Source: Gammaproteobacteria bacterium (lineage in GTDB: Bacteria > Pseudomonadota > Gammaproteobacteria > SZUA-152). Taken from it: a stretch of 43,724 nucleotides of DNA. The stretch is from the NCBI GenBank assembly GCA_024276955.1, contig JAJRWE010000163.1, positions 1 to 43,724 of the forward strand, in the 5' to 3' direction. Within the stretch, counting starts at the first letter, position 1; every line of letters begins with the position of its first letter. Under the pieces are notes generated by a model. That model made no database searches, was not told the origin of the DNA, and saw only the letters and a list, made by a program, of their open reading frames with translations. The translations under genes were made by a program, and so were the position numbers. Shown piece by piece: positions 1,155 through 8,022 of this stretch.

Positions 1155-1257
1155 TCCGTTGATCCGCCCCTGCTCGGTGGGTCACTAAAGATCCCTCCCC
1201 CTCTGCCGCTGAGAAGGCAGACCGTAGCAACACATCCATACCTTGCCGAGGGGCTGC

Positions 1258-1974
1258 ATGTACGACAATCTGGTGGAGAATCTGCACGATGAACTGGTGA
1301 TGCGTTATGCGCCACTGGTGAAGCGCATTGCCTACCATTTGAAGGCCCGCCTGCCCGCCACGGTGCTGGTGGATGACCTGCTGCAGGCCGGCATGATCGG
1401 CCTGCTGGAGGCGGCGAAAAAATACGATGCCAATCAGGGCGCCAGCTTCGAGACCTATGCCGGCATCCGCATCCGCGGCTCGATGCTGGACGAGCTGCGC
1501 CGCAACGACTGGGCACCGAAGTCGGTACACCGCAAGGTGCGCGATATCACCCGTGCGATTCGTGAGATCGAAAACCGCGAAGGTCGCGACGCGCGCGACG
1601 AAGAGGTCGTCGAGGCCTTGGGCATCAGCAAGACGGAATATTTCAAGACCCTGCAGGATGTCTCCACCCACCGGGTGCTGAGCTGGGACGAGATCGGCAT
1701 CGACGAGGACGCCATCGGCCAGTCCATCATGGACACCAAGCCCGGCGTGCAGGACCAGCTGGAGAAACAGCATTTCCGCGAACGTCTTTCCGAGGCCATT
1801 GCCACCCTGCCGGAGCGGGAAAAGATGACCGTGGCTCTGTACTATGAATCCGAACTCAATCTGCGCGAGATCGGCGGTGTGCTCAACGTCAGTGAATCCC
1901 GCGTCAGTCAGTTATTGAGTCAGGCACATATTCGCCTGCGGGCTCGCATGAAGGACTGGATTGCGCAACAATAG
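1258..1974 (+). CDS. fliA: RNA polymerase sigma factor, FliA/sigma-28 family
   Basis: LVDDLLQAGMIGLLEAAKKYD, RIRGSMLDELRRNDWAPKSV, LPEREKMTVALYYESELNLREIGGVLNVSESRVSQL match FliA regions 2-4. Confidence 0.9.
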   Translation: MYDNLVENLHDELVMRYAPLVKRIAYHLKARLPATVLVDDLLQAGMIGLLEAAKKYDANQGASFETYAGIRIRGSMLDELRRNDWAPKSVHRKVRDITRAIREIENREGRDARDEEVVEALGISKTEYFKTLQDVSTHRVLSWDEIGIDEDAIGQSIMDTKPGVQDQLEKQHFRERLSEAIATLPEREKMTVALYYESELNLREIGGVLNVSESRVSQLLSQAHIRLRARMKDWIAQQ

Positions 1975-2004
1975 ACGTTTGCCGCCACTGCAGACAATCC
2001 AGCC

Positions 2005-2472
2005 ATGCCCTGTTCCACATTCCAGCCCGTGATACGCAAGCGCCGCCTGCACAACGCCACGCGCCTGCACGAACGCAATTTCTCCAAGTTGCTGCTGGTC
2101 ATTCCGGGTATCCGCGACATCACCACCCCGCTCTTCCTGCAGGGCCGTGGCGACACACGCCTGGCCGTGGAAGTCCTGGAGAAAAGCAAATACACCACCA
2201 CCCTTTCCCTGCAACTGCAACAATGCAGCAGCAGCCGCCGCTGGCTGCCCTCCCTGCACATGAAAGTCCGTACCTACCACGATGTCCATGTCGCCGAAGT
2301 CCTGGCCTTTCAGGGCCATCACCGCCTGGATTCCCGCTATACTTACCCCAATCCACGCATGTATCACCGCGACGAAAAATGGCAACTCAACCACTTTCTC
2401 GGCGACTGGCTCGACCACTGTCTGCGCAGTCGTTGCATTTTTCGCGATGAAATTCAACCTATTGACGCCTGA
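2005..2472 (+). CDS. DUF1249 family protein
   Basis: 155 aa ORF; YTYPNPRMYHRDEKWQLNHFLGDWLDHCL motif of DUF1249 proteins. Confidence 0.8.
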   Translation: MPCSTFQPVIRKRRLHNATRLHERNFSKLLLVIPGIRDITTPLFLQGRGDTRLAVEVLEKSKYTTTLSLQLQQCSSSRRWLPSLHMKVRTYHDVHVAEVLAFQGHHRLDSRYTYPNPRMYHRDEKWQLNHFLGDWLDHCLRSRCIFRDEIQPIDA

Positions 2473-2473
2473 A

Positions 2474-2940
2474 GCTAGAATCCGCAATTGACCGCTTCGA
2501 GGTAAGTCTAAGCACATGGGAATAAACAAACTTATCTAAAAGCGAGACTTCACCTGCCGAGTGAGGACGCTACGACCTGCCCATCCGCTCTGAGCGCCCG
2601 CCTGACTATGCAAAAAAATCGTTAAGGAACAAAGCCATTAACTCATTTTTTTGCCTGCATGGACGCAGGTAAGGGGCGTGAGCAGGAGCGGAAGCTTTGC
2701 CTGCATGGAGAAGGTGAGACCGGGAACCGGTCGAGAGGTTGGCCTGGGCCACGCAGGTACCAAAAGTAGGCGCCCTGAGGCGGGGGGCGTAAGCAGGAGC
2801 GGAAGCTTTAGATACGCCAGACGAACACTCAGAACCAGTGGACAGCACCGCAAGATCAAAAACCAAACAGGTATTTGGTTTAGATACGCCAGACGAACAC
2901 TCAGAACCAGTGGACAGGCCGCTCAACTGATTAATCTAGG
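2474..2940 (-). mobile_element. MITE-like element, copy 1 (expanded, with internal duplications)
   Basis: Shares end and internal sequence with 6846-7085 in opposite orientation; intact right TIR gattaatctagg, degenerate left TIR gctagaatc; ~220 bp extra internal sequence. Confidence 0.8.
2816..2918. repeat. Duplicated arm within MITE copy 1
   Basis: gccagacgaacactcagaaccagtggacag at 2816-2845 and again at 2888-2917. Confidence 0.95.
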
Positions 2941-3059
2941 ATATTGAACAATCCAGACAAACAGCACCTCAAGAACAAGCCGAACTGTTCCGATAAGTCA
3001 TTGTGTGGCGATGAAATGTGTAATGATGGAAATCGTGGCTATGACACAAGAAGGTAACT

Positions 3060-4090: not shown

Positions 4091-6718
4091 TTAAGCGGCG
4101 AGCTGCCTGGCCAGGGATTCCAGACCCTCACGGTCGTGCAGGATTGTCTCCCAGAGACCAACCACGCAATCGGTATCGATACCGAGGTGTTTCACCACCC
4201 CATCCAGCCGTTCAGCGCGAAGCTCATCCCCGGCCTCATGGTCCAGCAGGATATCCGCCACCTGCAGCAGATAAACATAGTCCGCAAAATCTCCGCTATA
4301 GTCCGCGCTATGATGCCGGGAAACCGCAGAAATCACCTCTTCGGGCAATTGCCAGGACCGCAGCAATTGCTCACCAATGAATGCATGATCCATTCCCAGC
4401 ACACGGTTCTCAATATCCACGCGTGGGGTATCCGGCGACTGCAATTGACAGTCGGCAATGGCTTCACAGGCCTCCGCGAACTGACTCACCAGGAACAGAT
4501 GGCCGATATCACGCAGCAGGGCCGACAGATAGGCCAGTCCGGGTTTGACGCGCTTGCGCAGGGGGCGCTGTGAGGCCAGTGCCTGGGCCATGGATCCGGC
4601 GGCCACCGCCTTCCACCAGAAACCTTCGCGTGCCAGCATGGCCTTGCCGCTGGCCGGCAGAGATCCCATGGCCACCAGCCCCAGTGCAATGCCCATGACG
4701 CCGTCGTAACCCAGCACGGTGATCACCGCTTTTTCGATGGACTCAATGCGCCCCTGAAATCCGAAAAATGGGGCATTGGCATAGCGGATAATCTGCGCCG
4801 CAAGGGCAGGATCACTGCCAATAATATCGCTCAGATCCTGGACATGGGCGTCCGGATCCTGCATCAAGTGCAGCAGCTTCTGCCCTACCTCGGACATCAC
4901 CGGCAAGCCATCACTGGTTTTAAGTGCCGCAGAAATCTGTTTTTTCCAGGGGGCATGAATATCGATAACCTCCGCCGTAGTGGAAGCCTTCCATTTCAAG
5001 TTACCCTGGCGCAGCCTGACGGTCATTTCATCAACTGGCAACGGCTTGCTGTAATAATAGCCCTGCACATAAGTGCAATTCAGTTTGCGCAGGTAGGCCT
5101 CCTGGCCGGCCCCCTCCACACCTTCCGCCACCGTTTCCAGCCCCAGAGAATGGGCAAGGTGAACGATGGAATGGGTAATCGCCGCTGACTCACGATCAAC
5201 CATGACATCTTTGACGAAACTGCGATCAATCTTCAGTGTATCAATGGGGAATCGTTGCAGATAGCTGAGTGAGGAATAGCCCGTGCCAAAGTCGTCGATA
5301 GCGATGCGCACACCGAGACCCCGCAGTGCGGTAAGGATCTCAATGGTGGCCTTGGGGGTATTCATGGTGGCGCCTTCGGTGATTTCGAGTTCCAGCCAGC
5401 GCGACTCCAGGCCGGTTTCCTGCAAGGCCACCCGTACCATTTCGACCAGACTATGTTCATCGCCAAACTGCAGTGCGGAGAGATTTACCGCCACCCGCAC
5501 TGGCGCCAGGCCCTGCTGTTGCCAAGCCTTGTTCTGGGCACAGGCAGTCCGTAGCACCCATTCCCCCAGCGAAATAATCATGCCACTGGATTCGGCCAAG
5601 AGAATAAAATCCAGCGGTGGGATCATGCCCAGCTGAGGATGCTCCCAGCGCAGTAACGCCTCCAGGGCCTTCACCGTACCCGTCTTCGAATCAAGGATGG
5701 GCTGGTAGTGGATGGAAAATTCACCTCGTTCCATGGCATGACGCAGATCGGCTTCCAGAGTGAGGCGACGGATCTCTTCTGCATGGATCTTGGCATTGAA
5801 GAAGCGCAGGCAGGCACGGCCCTGCTGTTTGGCCGTGTACATCGCTGCATCGGCGTGCTTCATCAACAAACTGGCATCCACGCCATCGCTGGGATAAATA
5901 GCAATGCCGATACTGGGCGTGCAGGCCACCAACTGCTCTTTCAAGACGATAGGCTGCGACAGGGACTTCAGAATCTGACGCGCAACTTTTTCCGCATTGG
6001 CCGGGGAACCGATCCCCGTCAGCACACAGCCAAACTCATCACCACCCAAGCGGGCAAGAATATCACGGCCACGCACACCGGCCGTCAGCCGCTCACTCAC
6101 CTGCTTCAGCAGACGATCACCGGCATCATGGCCGTAGGTATCATTGACTGATTTGAAACGATCAAGATCGATGAACAGCACCGCCAATTTTTCTGTATTG
6201 CGCTCTGCCTGCAGCAGACTGGCGGTCAGACGATCACGAAACAGGGCACGATTGGGCAATCCGGTGAGCGGGTCATGGGTTGCCAGGTGCTCCTGATCCA
6301 GCCGGGCCGCCGCCAGTTCACCCCGCAGTTGGCGGCGTTCGATGGTAAATTCCAGTGTGCGCACCAGCAACCGAGGATTGGTTTCGCCACGCAGCAGATA
6401 GTCCGTCGCACCTGCCGCACACAGGCCCCTGGCCTGTGCCTCTTGTGCAGGGTTGGCCAGCAGAATCAGGGGCGTGTCAGGCAGATGCTGATTCTGCCAT
6501 TGCTTCAGATCCCCGGTTTTACCGCCAAAACAGGTCATGTCAACAATCACGGCATCGAAGTGACCAGCACCGACAATCGATTCTGCCGCCGACAGATCAG
6601 CCGCATGGATCAGCCCAAAACAGCCTTTTCCTGCACTGCGCAGGGCATCGACGACCCAGCGGACATTGCCGGCATTACCCTCAACCAGCAGAACCCTGGC
6701 AGAAACTTCAGGCTTCAT
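4091..6718 (-). CDS. Degenerate REC - GGDEF - EAL - HDOD protein
   Basis: GGDEF active site RLGGDEF with RGRD I-site, EALLRWEHP EAL motif, C-terminal HDOD-like region (LPVMSEVGQKLLHLMQDPDAHVQDLSDIIGSDPALAAQIIRYAN). Confidence 0.92.
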   Translation of the reverse strand: MKPEVSARVLLVEGNAGNVRWVVDALRSAGKGCFGLIHAADLSAAESIVGAGHFDAVIVDMTCFGGKTGDLKQWQNQHLPDTPLILLANPAQEAQARGLCAAGATDYLLRGETNPRLLVRTLEFTIERRQLRGELAAARLDQEHLATHDPLTGLPNRALFRDRLTASLLQAERNTEKLAVLFIDLDRFKSVNDTYGHDAGDRLLKQVSERLTAGVRGRDILARLGGDEFGCVLTGIGSPANAEKVARQILKSLSQPIVLKEQLVACTPSIGIAIYPSDGVDASLLMKHADAAMYTAKQQGRACLRFFNAKIHAEEIRRLTLEADLRHAMERGEFSIHYQPILDSKTGTVKALEALLRWEHPQLGMIPPLDFILLAESSGMIISLGEWVLRTACAQNKAWQQQGLAPVRVAVNLSALQFGDEHSLVEMVRVALQETGLESRWLELEITEGATMNTPKATIEILTALRGLGVRIAIDDFGTGYSSLSYLQRFPIDTLKIDRSFVKDVMVDRESAAITHSIVHLAHSLGLETVAEGVEGAGQEAYLRKLNCTYVQGYYYSKPLPVDEMTVRLRQGNLKWKASTTAEVIDIHAPWKKQISAALKTSDGLPVMSEVGQKLLHLMQDPDAHVQDLSDIIGSDPALAAQIIRYANAPFFGFQGRIESIEKAVITVLGYDGVMGIALGLVAMGSLPASGKAMLAREGFWWKAVAAGSMAQALASQRPLRKRVKPGLAYLSALLRDIGHLFLVSQFAEACEAIADCQLQSPDTPRVDIENRVLGMDHAFIGEQLLRSWQLPEEVISAVSRHHSADYSGDFADYVYLLQVADILLDHEAGDELRAERLDGVVKHLGIDTDCVVGLWETILHDREGLESLARQLAA

Positions 6719-6845
6719 CAAAACTCCAGACCACACATGTATTATTACTGAAACAGGGATGGCCAGTTCATTGTGGAATGTCAGGCTGGCCCTGTGAAGT
6801 TCTTCGTTATGCCAACTTGTCGGCAGCAGACCTCTGCTTCTTTAA

Positions 6846-7085
6846 CCTAGATTAATCGGTTGAACGGCCTGCCCAGTGGTTCTGAGTGTTCGTCTGACGT
6901 AGCAAAAAATGAGTTAATGGCCCTTGCTCCTTAACGAGTTTTTTTGCATAGTCAGGTGGGCACTCAGAGCTGCTGGGCAGGTCGTAGCGTCCTCACCCTG
7001 CAGGTGAAAAGTCTGGCATTCAGGTGAATTCGTTGATGACCATACACTTAGATTTACCTCGAAGCGGTCAACTGATTAATCTAGG
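6846..7085 (+). mobile_element. MITE-like element, copy 2 (240 bp, intact TIRs)
   Basis: cctagattaatcggttgaacgg ... gcggtcaactgattaatctagg TIRs; flanked by tttaa at 6841-6845 and 7086-7090 (5-bp putative TSD). Confidence 0.85.
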
Positions 7086-7252
7086 TTTAAGGGAAAATAG
7101 CCTACAAAAACAAAAATTTACCAACCTGAACGGCAGATAAGCAGGCAGGCTCCTTGGTCGGCGGAAATCCGCTATAATCTGCAGCTATGAACCTAGGTTG
7201 AACATCCATTTCAATAAATCGCGCTTCCAGATTAATAAAGCAGAAAAACAAC

Positions 7253-7368: not shown

Positions 7369-8022
7369 CTATCGCATCCCCAGCTTTTCTTCGATTGCCG
7401 CCAAAACCACTTCACTGGGACCTGCCGCATCGACATTCAGCAGCAGGTCTTCATTTTCATAGAAGCCAATGAGTGGTGTGGTCTTTTCATTATAAGTTTC
7501 CAGCCGATGCGAGATGGCCTCTGCGGTCTCATCATCACGCTGGATAACCGGACTGCCACATTTGTCACAGATACCTGCCTGTTTGGGGGGATTGCTTTTG
7601 ACATTGTAAATTGCCTGGCAATCAGCATTGGAGCAGGTGCGGCGAGTGGTCAGGCGCTCCAGGATCACCTCACGCTCAAGATTGAAATTGACCGCCATAT
7701 CCAGTTCGATACCCAGCTTTTCCAGCAGACTCTTGAGCGCTTCGGCCTGGGGAATCGTGCGCGGAAAACCATCCAGCAAAAAGCCCTTCTCACAATCCGG
7801 CTCCTGGAGACGCTGCGCCATAATGTCCATGATGAGATCATCCGGCACAAGGTCACCCGATTTCATCAGAGACTCTATCTGCTTGCCCAGCTTGCTACCT
7901 GCTGCCACGGCGCCGCGGAGAATGTCACCGGTGGAAATCTGCACCGAACCATCCAGTTCAGTCAACAGTTTTGCCACTGTGCCCTTACCAGCACCCGGGG
8001 CGCCTAAAAGTATCAATTTCAC
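7369..8022 (-). CDS. adk: Adenylate kinase with Cys4-type LID
   Basis: MKLILLGAPGAGKGT, LDGFPRTIPQAEAL; LID CSNADC...CDKC. Confidence 0.97.
   Translation of the reverse strand: MKLILLGAPGAGKGTVAKLLTELDGSVQISTGDILRGAVAAGSKLGKQIESLMKSGDLVPDDLIMDIMAQRLQEPDCEKGFLLDGFPRTIPQAEALKSLLEKLGIELDMAVNFNLEREVILERLTTRRTCSNADCQAIYNVKSNPPKQAGICDKCGSPVIQRDDETAEAISHRLETYNEKTTPLIGFYENEDLLLNVDAAGPSEVVLAAIEEKLGMR

Follow-up and report, generated by a model that had tools for sequence, protein, structure and literature searches.

Bacterial miniature inverted-repeat transposable elements (MITEs) are usually seen as inert deletion products and their hairpins as by-products. In Coxiella burnetii, however, two such elements, QMITE1 and QMITE2, give rise to the small RNAs (sRNAs) CbsR3, CbsR13 and CbsR16, whose transcription is documented by RNA sequencing (PMC5896051). 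Repetitive extragenic palindromes (REPs) are 20-40 bp long (PMC3733652), and ISEcp1, an insertion sequence (IS) of the IS1380 family, has the left inverted repeat CCTAGATTCTACGT and makes a 5-bp duplication (PMC7864471); IS1380 is not mentioned in a 2024 review of prokaryotic MITEs (PMC10969869). We describe here a 240-bp element at positions 6846-7085 of a 43,724-nt stretch of gammaproteobacterial DNA (the window, over the whole of which coordinates are counted, on the + strand). In contrast to the usual view of MITEs, compensatory change that favours one strand keeps a hairpin scaffold in this element and its relatives while the sequence turns over, and does so across 34 of the 270 gammaproteobacterial genera sampled. 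On balance it seems reasonable to argue that this is a non-autonomous IS1380-type element with a structured unit whose working form is single-stranded and, in all likelihood, + strand RNA.

Pairing, covariation and strand bias of the hairpin

The original prediction, made from the sequence alone, described arms at 6868-6898 and 6951-6981 that pair as + strand RNA over 31 consecutive positions, with 24 Watson-Crick pairs, seven G-U pairs and no mismatch. On re-pairing this count is exact (the G-U pairs stand at 6877, 6878, 6880, 6889, 6890, 6892 and 6893), the inner A6/T7 and GTTAA/TTAAC stems that it had placed further in are both present, and additional G-U pairs occur at 6867/6982 and 6858/7073. 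When both strands of the whole element are folded as RNA, a check that had been proposed together with the prediction, the + strand comes out as the more stable one, at -120.0 kcal/mol (z -11.1, 0 of 200 shuffles) versus -93.5 kcal/mol (z -7.6) for the - strand. In the window copy alone the asymmetry amounts to seven G-U against zero A-C (two-sided binomial p = 0.016), and it is the wider evidence, from beyond this single copy, that makes it convincing.

Covariation, which the prediction had suggested looking for among collected copies, is strong both among copies and in distant relatives. One covariance model (R1) was built from the hairpin of the window element, + strand, and a second (R2) from a cross-family alignment. 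Over 17 hairpins, including a distant copy from an SZUA-41 metagenome, 97.9% of the cells are paired, 11 pairs are doubly changed and the covariation score is greater than in all 500 shuffles (0/500), while slid controls paired at 38-48%. The SZUA-41 copy itself has six pairs changed on both sides and has lost one whole pair from both arms, with no A-C. The R1 model retrieved other element families, from the same taxonomic order, whose hairpin sequence is largely unrelated, and two further families were retrieved by their end sequence alone, without any structural model. The usual layout is a CCTAGA-type end, the hairpin directly inside it and the right end ~90 nt beyond; families 1-3 share a GTAGCG...CTCACC...GGTGAG-like stretch after the hairpin. 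Across families, in an alignment that was fitted to the structure, 41 of the 46 pairs are doubly changed among 22 hairpins (255 cells versus 84 in shuffles), and R2 matches at E <= 1e-6 are found in 39 of 369 gammaproteobacterial genomes, corresponding to the 34 genera mentioned above.

For the strand bias, pairing was scored strand-neutrally, and either restricted to the hairpin or with milder scoring. All 32 representatives are more stable on the + strand, by a median of 19 kcal/mol, and the direction of the bias is uniform across them. Their non-Watson-Crick pairs comprise 171 G-U versus 76 A-C and 158 G-A versus 14 C-T, counts that allow only rough probabilities because cells are not independent and the families found with the model lean toward G-U. 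For about half of the representatives the orientation is set independently by the layout (right terminal inverted repeat ~92 nt past the hairpin), families found without a structural model are biased in the same direction, and parsimony on the family-1 tree counts ~24 Watson-Crick pairs that turned into G-U and 10 that turned into A-C.

An alternative is an ordinary palindromic MITE, whose hairpin would simply follow from its origin as an inverted repeat and whose asymmetry would be a matter of chance, mutation bias or shared ancestry. Such MITEs are common, the single-copy asymmetry is only 7:0, and many pairs are inherited by all copies. Nevertheless, the bias recurs in families whose arms are largely unrelated, two of them found without a structural model, it extends to G-A versus C-T, and non-Watson-Crick positions are conserved amid covarying helices; moreover, repair of a palindrome by template switching would erase wobbles rather than preserve them. 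Since copies lie in both orientations with respect to genes, a simple strand-linked mutation bias is unlikely, and we regard this explanation as improbable overall.

Non-canonical features stand at a constant distance from the element end across families while the intervening helices diverge. Counted from the end, positions 29-30 have a G-A mismatch and 32-33 a tandem U-G/G-U within GUGC/GUGC; a G-A or A-G follows at 50-51, then a 3x3 loop of GUA/AUA at 54-58 and lastly GA/GA at 64-70. The set differs by family and not all motifs occur in each: family 1 in its window form lacks the G-A at 29 but shows the tandem wobble together with the GUA/AUA and GA loops. Among the column pairs of the cross-family alignment one, a G-A pair, departs from standard pairing in 16 of 18 sequences, and adjoining it U-G (16 of 22) and G-U (14 of 22) persist amid freely covarying pairs.

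In the window copy, all on the + strand, the long hairpin as defined by folding, pairing and covariation has its 5' arm at 6864-6898 and its 3' arm at 6951-6985, giving 35 pairs, among which the 31 of the original prediction begin at 6868. The tandem U-G/G-U motif has its 5' side at 6877-6878 and its partner at 6971-6972; this is element position 32-33, which is kept across families. Further in lie the GUA/AUA 3x3 internal loop (6899-6901, with AUA as its 3' side at 6948-6950; the same loop occurs in families 4, 5 and 7), the inner stem assigned from pairing (GC and A6 side 6902-6909, T6 and GC side 6940-6947), the tandem G-A internal loop near the tip (UGA as 5' side at 6910-6912, GAGT as 3' side at 6936-6939; a GA/GA loop is present in families 1-4) and, from folding and pairing, the GTTAA/TTAAC tip stem with its loop (6913-6935). 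The 3' sides of both internal loops were assigned by cross-family comparison. Beyond the long hairpin, a small conserved hairpin TCACCCTGCAGGTGA (6993-7007) is found 3' of the GTAGCG motif, with a similar sequence 3' of the hairpin in families 2 and 3, and a weaker, medium hairpin (7014-7067), of less conserved pairing and no clear strand bias, lies in the 3' part.

Mobility of the element and its likely mover

By every feature examined, 6846-7085 is a MITE: it is short (240 bp), without coding capacity and multicopy, and it has terminal inverted repeats (TIRs) and a target-site duplication. The limits proposed for it at the outset, together with the TTTAA duplication, are confirmed by six congeneric genomes that lack an insertion at the site beside adenylate kinase and have a single TTTAA there, versus two in the window (6841-6845 and 7086-7090). 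The left TIR CCTAGATTAATCGGTTGA (6846-6863, +) is common to dozens of copies, and the right TIR (7068-7085, -) is likewise shared among copies. A BLASTN search with 6820-7110 returned 32 matches in the window's own assembly, and matches in five of six congeners; complete copies start with CCTAGATTAATC and finish with GATTAATCTAGG, all of them have the 18-bp TIR CCTAGATTAATCnGTTGA, and most stand between the two halves of a 5-bp duplication of type nTnAn. Blastn with the window element, and with one or two of its relatives, revealed no phage or plasmid carrier.

Both neighbouring genes lie on the - strand: 4091-6736 encodes a GGDEF/EAL/HDOD protein and 7369-8022 encodes adenylate kinase. The structured + strand is thus antisense to each of them, as had been noted at first reading. 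In another genome (L217, from G004), a family-4-like hairpin element with CCTGAATCCGTG ends is located directly upstream of adenylate kinase, the gene that flanks the window element too.

Copies vary considerably in form. The window holds a second copy from this family (2474-2940, -), which is larger and rearranged, with a duplicated left arm, extra sequence at the hairpin tip and unlike ends (CCTAGATTAATC versus CTAGAATCCGC). Longer forms of 270-331 bp (L015, L007, L008, L062 and L077) have extra blocks near the hairpin tip, either 5' or 3' of it or at both places, and in the 331-bp form parts of the two blocks are able to pair with each other, which suggests that the two sides were independently lost or gained. 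Short forms of 126-128 bp (L022, L072 and L200) keep both ends, the long hairpin being mostly or wholly gone. Finally, two 16-bp scars CCTAGATTAATCTAGG, at ~1501-1516 of L049 (upstream of a groES-like gene) and at ~470-486 of L148, one of them with TTTAA on both sides, are consistent with deletion of the whole element between the GATTAATC repeats at its two ends, with the target duplication left behind.

As to what moves the element, the same 18 bp (CCTAGATTAATCAGTTGA) form an end of an IS1380-family transposon at locus L265 of G181, the genome of a gammaproteobacterium from another family that carries copies of the same element, and this common end makes IS1380-type transposases, acting in trans, the likely movers; such an enzyme would recognise the 18-bp ends and duplicate 5 bp of the target. 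The IS1380-family gene of this G181 transposon (516 aa) lies between ends CCTAGATTAATCAGTTGA and CCTAAAAAAATCAGTTAA, with a match to PF13701 at 8.6e-21 and transpos_IS1380 as its best NCBIfam match (130.9 bits, below the cut-off of 180). A related IS in G307 has ends CCTAGAAAAATCAGTTAC and CCTAAAAAAATCAGTTAA (CCTAGAAAAATCAGTTA-type) and the duplication ATGAT, and an IS in G158 has CCTGAATCCGTG ends, as in MITE family 4. The single-contig genome of G158 (L264, L270, L276 and L281) holds dozens of IS1380 copies with these family-4 ends; relatives of the hairpin occur in several single-contig genomes, G343 and G158 among them. The sequence around the L265 transposon (~1240-3012) forms a long, almost perfect palindrome (TCGTAGCGAGACGGTT...) with the transposon at its centre, as though it had gone into the tip of a different hairpin repeat. 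The IS1380 genes of congeners were rejected as a source of the ends, which differ from theirs.

The common 18-bp end would also suit a plain internal-deletion derivative of an IS1380 element, with the hairpin as old IS sequence. The IS that shares the end lacks such a hairpin, however, its sequence beyond the gene amounting to only ~60-75 bp, and the hairpin is absent from all IS elements inspected, including the non-coding ends of other IS1380 members; for this reason the hairpin is not simply left-over IS sequence. The same hairpin scaffold is, in addition, found between differing TIR types, and we therefore give this derivation very little credence.

Which molecule carries the fold

Selection on a one-stranded fold is how these observations are best read, and the molecule is most likely RNA, because RNA normally accommodates wobble and sheared G-A pairs and because MITE-derived sRNAs are known in Coxiella (PMC5896051). 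The one-strand asymmetry had originally been taken as a sign of selection on an RNA; the + strand bias and the covariation support this, but wobbles alone cannot separate RNA from + strand single-stranded DNA (ssDNA).

Several observations weigh against an RNA, or against parts of the proposal. No internal promoter better than chance was found in the element, and over 26 copies, which occur in both orientations, there is no orientation bias with respect to flanking genes, the + strand being antisense to the left gene somewhat more often (16:9, not significant). Folded as DNA, the + strand is again the more stable (-56.5 versus -48.3), and folded ssDNA, too, accommodates G-T and tandem G-A pairs. 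The bias is absent from the second hairpin (7014-7067), many relatives were found with a + strand model that favours G-U over A-C, cells from related sequences cannot be treated as independent, and the window's own assembly, which is 87% complete, yielded no IS1380 gene.

Part of this list is what would be expected if the + strand fold worked as ssDNA, on the lagging strand, as an intermediate of transposition or uptake or as a protein-binding hairpin, with no RNA role: the better DNA fold of the + strand, the stability of G-T and tandem G-A pairs in DNA, and the lack of both a promoter and an orientation bias all speak for it. On the other side, the tandem 5'-UG-3'/3'-GU-5' and GUA/AUA motifs appear to resemble RNA motifs, the element has neither a relaxase nor any other gene, and IS1380-type DDE transposases are not known to use folded single strands. 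We consider ssDNA an unlikely carrier of the fold, although one to be taken seriously.

An RNA role could also be less specific, that of a mobile mRNA-end element which acts in read-through by stabilising, processing or terminating flanking mRNAs in the manner of enterobacterial repetitive intergenic consensus (ERIC) sequences and REPs. A very stable hairpin within short intergenic gaps would fit such a role, and the A6/T7 tract of family 1 resembles a weak two-way terminator, yet the + strand is antisense to both neighbours, the 26 copies show no orientation bias toward flanking genes, families 2 and 3 are without a T tract, and the region has no terminator-like site. This role has, in our judgement, a low probability.

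We favour an RNA from the + strand, in which the long hairpin would be closed against a short 3' domain, and in which selection would maintain the pairing together with the G-A, tandem UG/GU, GUA/AUA and GA/GA motifs at set places of the helix. We infer that these motifs are recognition sites for a protein and that they interrupt a perfect double-stranded RNA that RNase III would otherwise cut; they would also add imperfections to the DNA palindrome and thereby lower its tendency to be deleted.

Rfam covariance models matched neither the window nor the element, nor any of ten related loci, relaxed thresholds included. The open-licence literature, to which the search was confined (subscription papers lay outside it), yielded no published description, and a literature search with the letters of the conserved core gave one unrelated chance match. 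We tentatively propose, as a conjecture held with somewhat less than even confidence, an undescribed and widespread class of mobile structured RNA, with a hairpin scaffold of ~120 nt and fixed motifs between the ends of several IS1380 subgroups, expressed from one strand, with a specific binding protein from the host or the transposon, and serving either spread or host regulation. If the molecule is indeed RNA, this would be a mobile class with a predicted transcribed strand, structure and protein-contact sites, and the question of what bacterial hairpin repeats do would become directly testable.

Comparison with known systems

ERIC sequences (enterobacterial repeat units), Correia elements and REP/REPIN sequences are, like this element, small intergenic mobile repeats able to fold as RNA. 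Their ends and target duplications differ from those of the window element, and no sequence shared between it and any of them was found. Integron attC sites are likewise imperfect hairpins of which only one strand works; unlike them, the window element has TIRs and a target-site duplication and sits alone between ordinary genes, with no integrase gene. With the IS1380 family (ISEcp1 and relatives) it has in common a TIR that begins CCTAGATT and a 5-bp target duplication, whereas members of that family encode a transposase and have no hairpin, and the window element encodes no transposase. There is also a likeness to QMITE1 and QMITE2, which are gammaproteobacterial MITEs too and whose transcripts contain very stable long hairpins (reported at -128.5 and -85 kcal/mol; PMC5896051). 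Compared by description, they differ in their direct repeats (2-4 bp and 7-9 bp) and in their sizes (~400 and 190 bp), and the sections consulted of that report give no strand bias or covariation for them and describe QMITE1 as without BLASTN orthologues (PMC5896051). Set beside these systems, a conserved one-strand scaffold with so wide a range is possibly new among MITEs, and possibly a new mobile structured RNA class.
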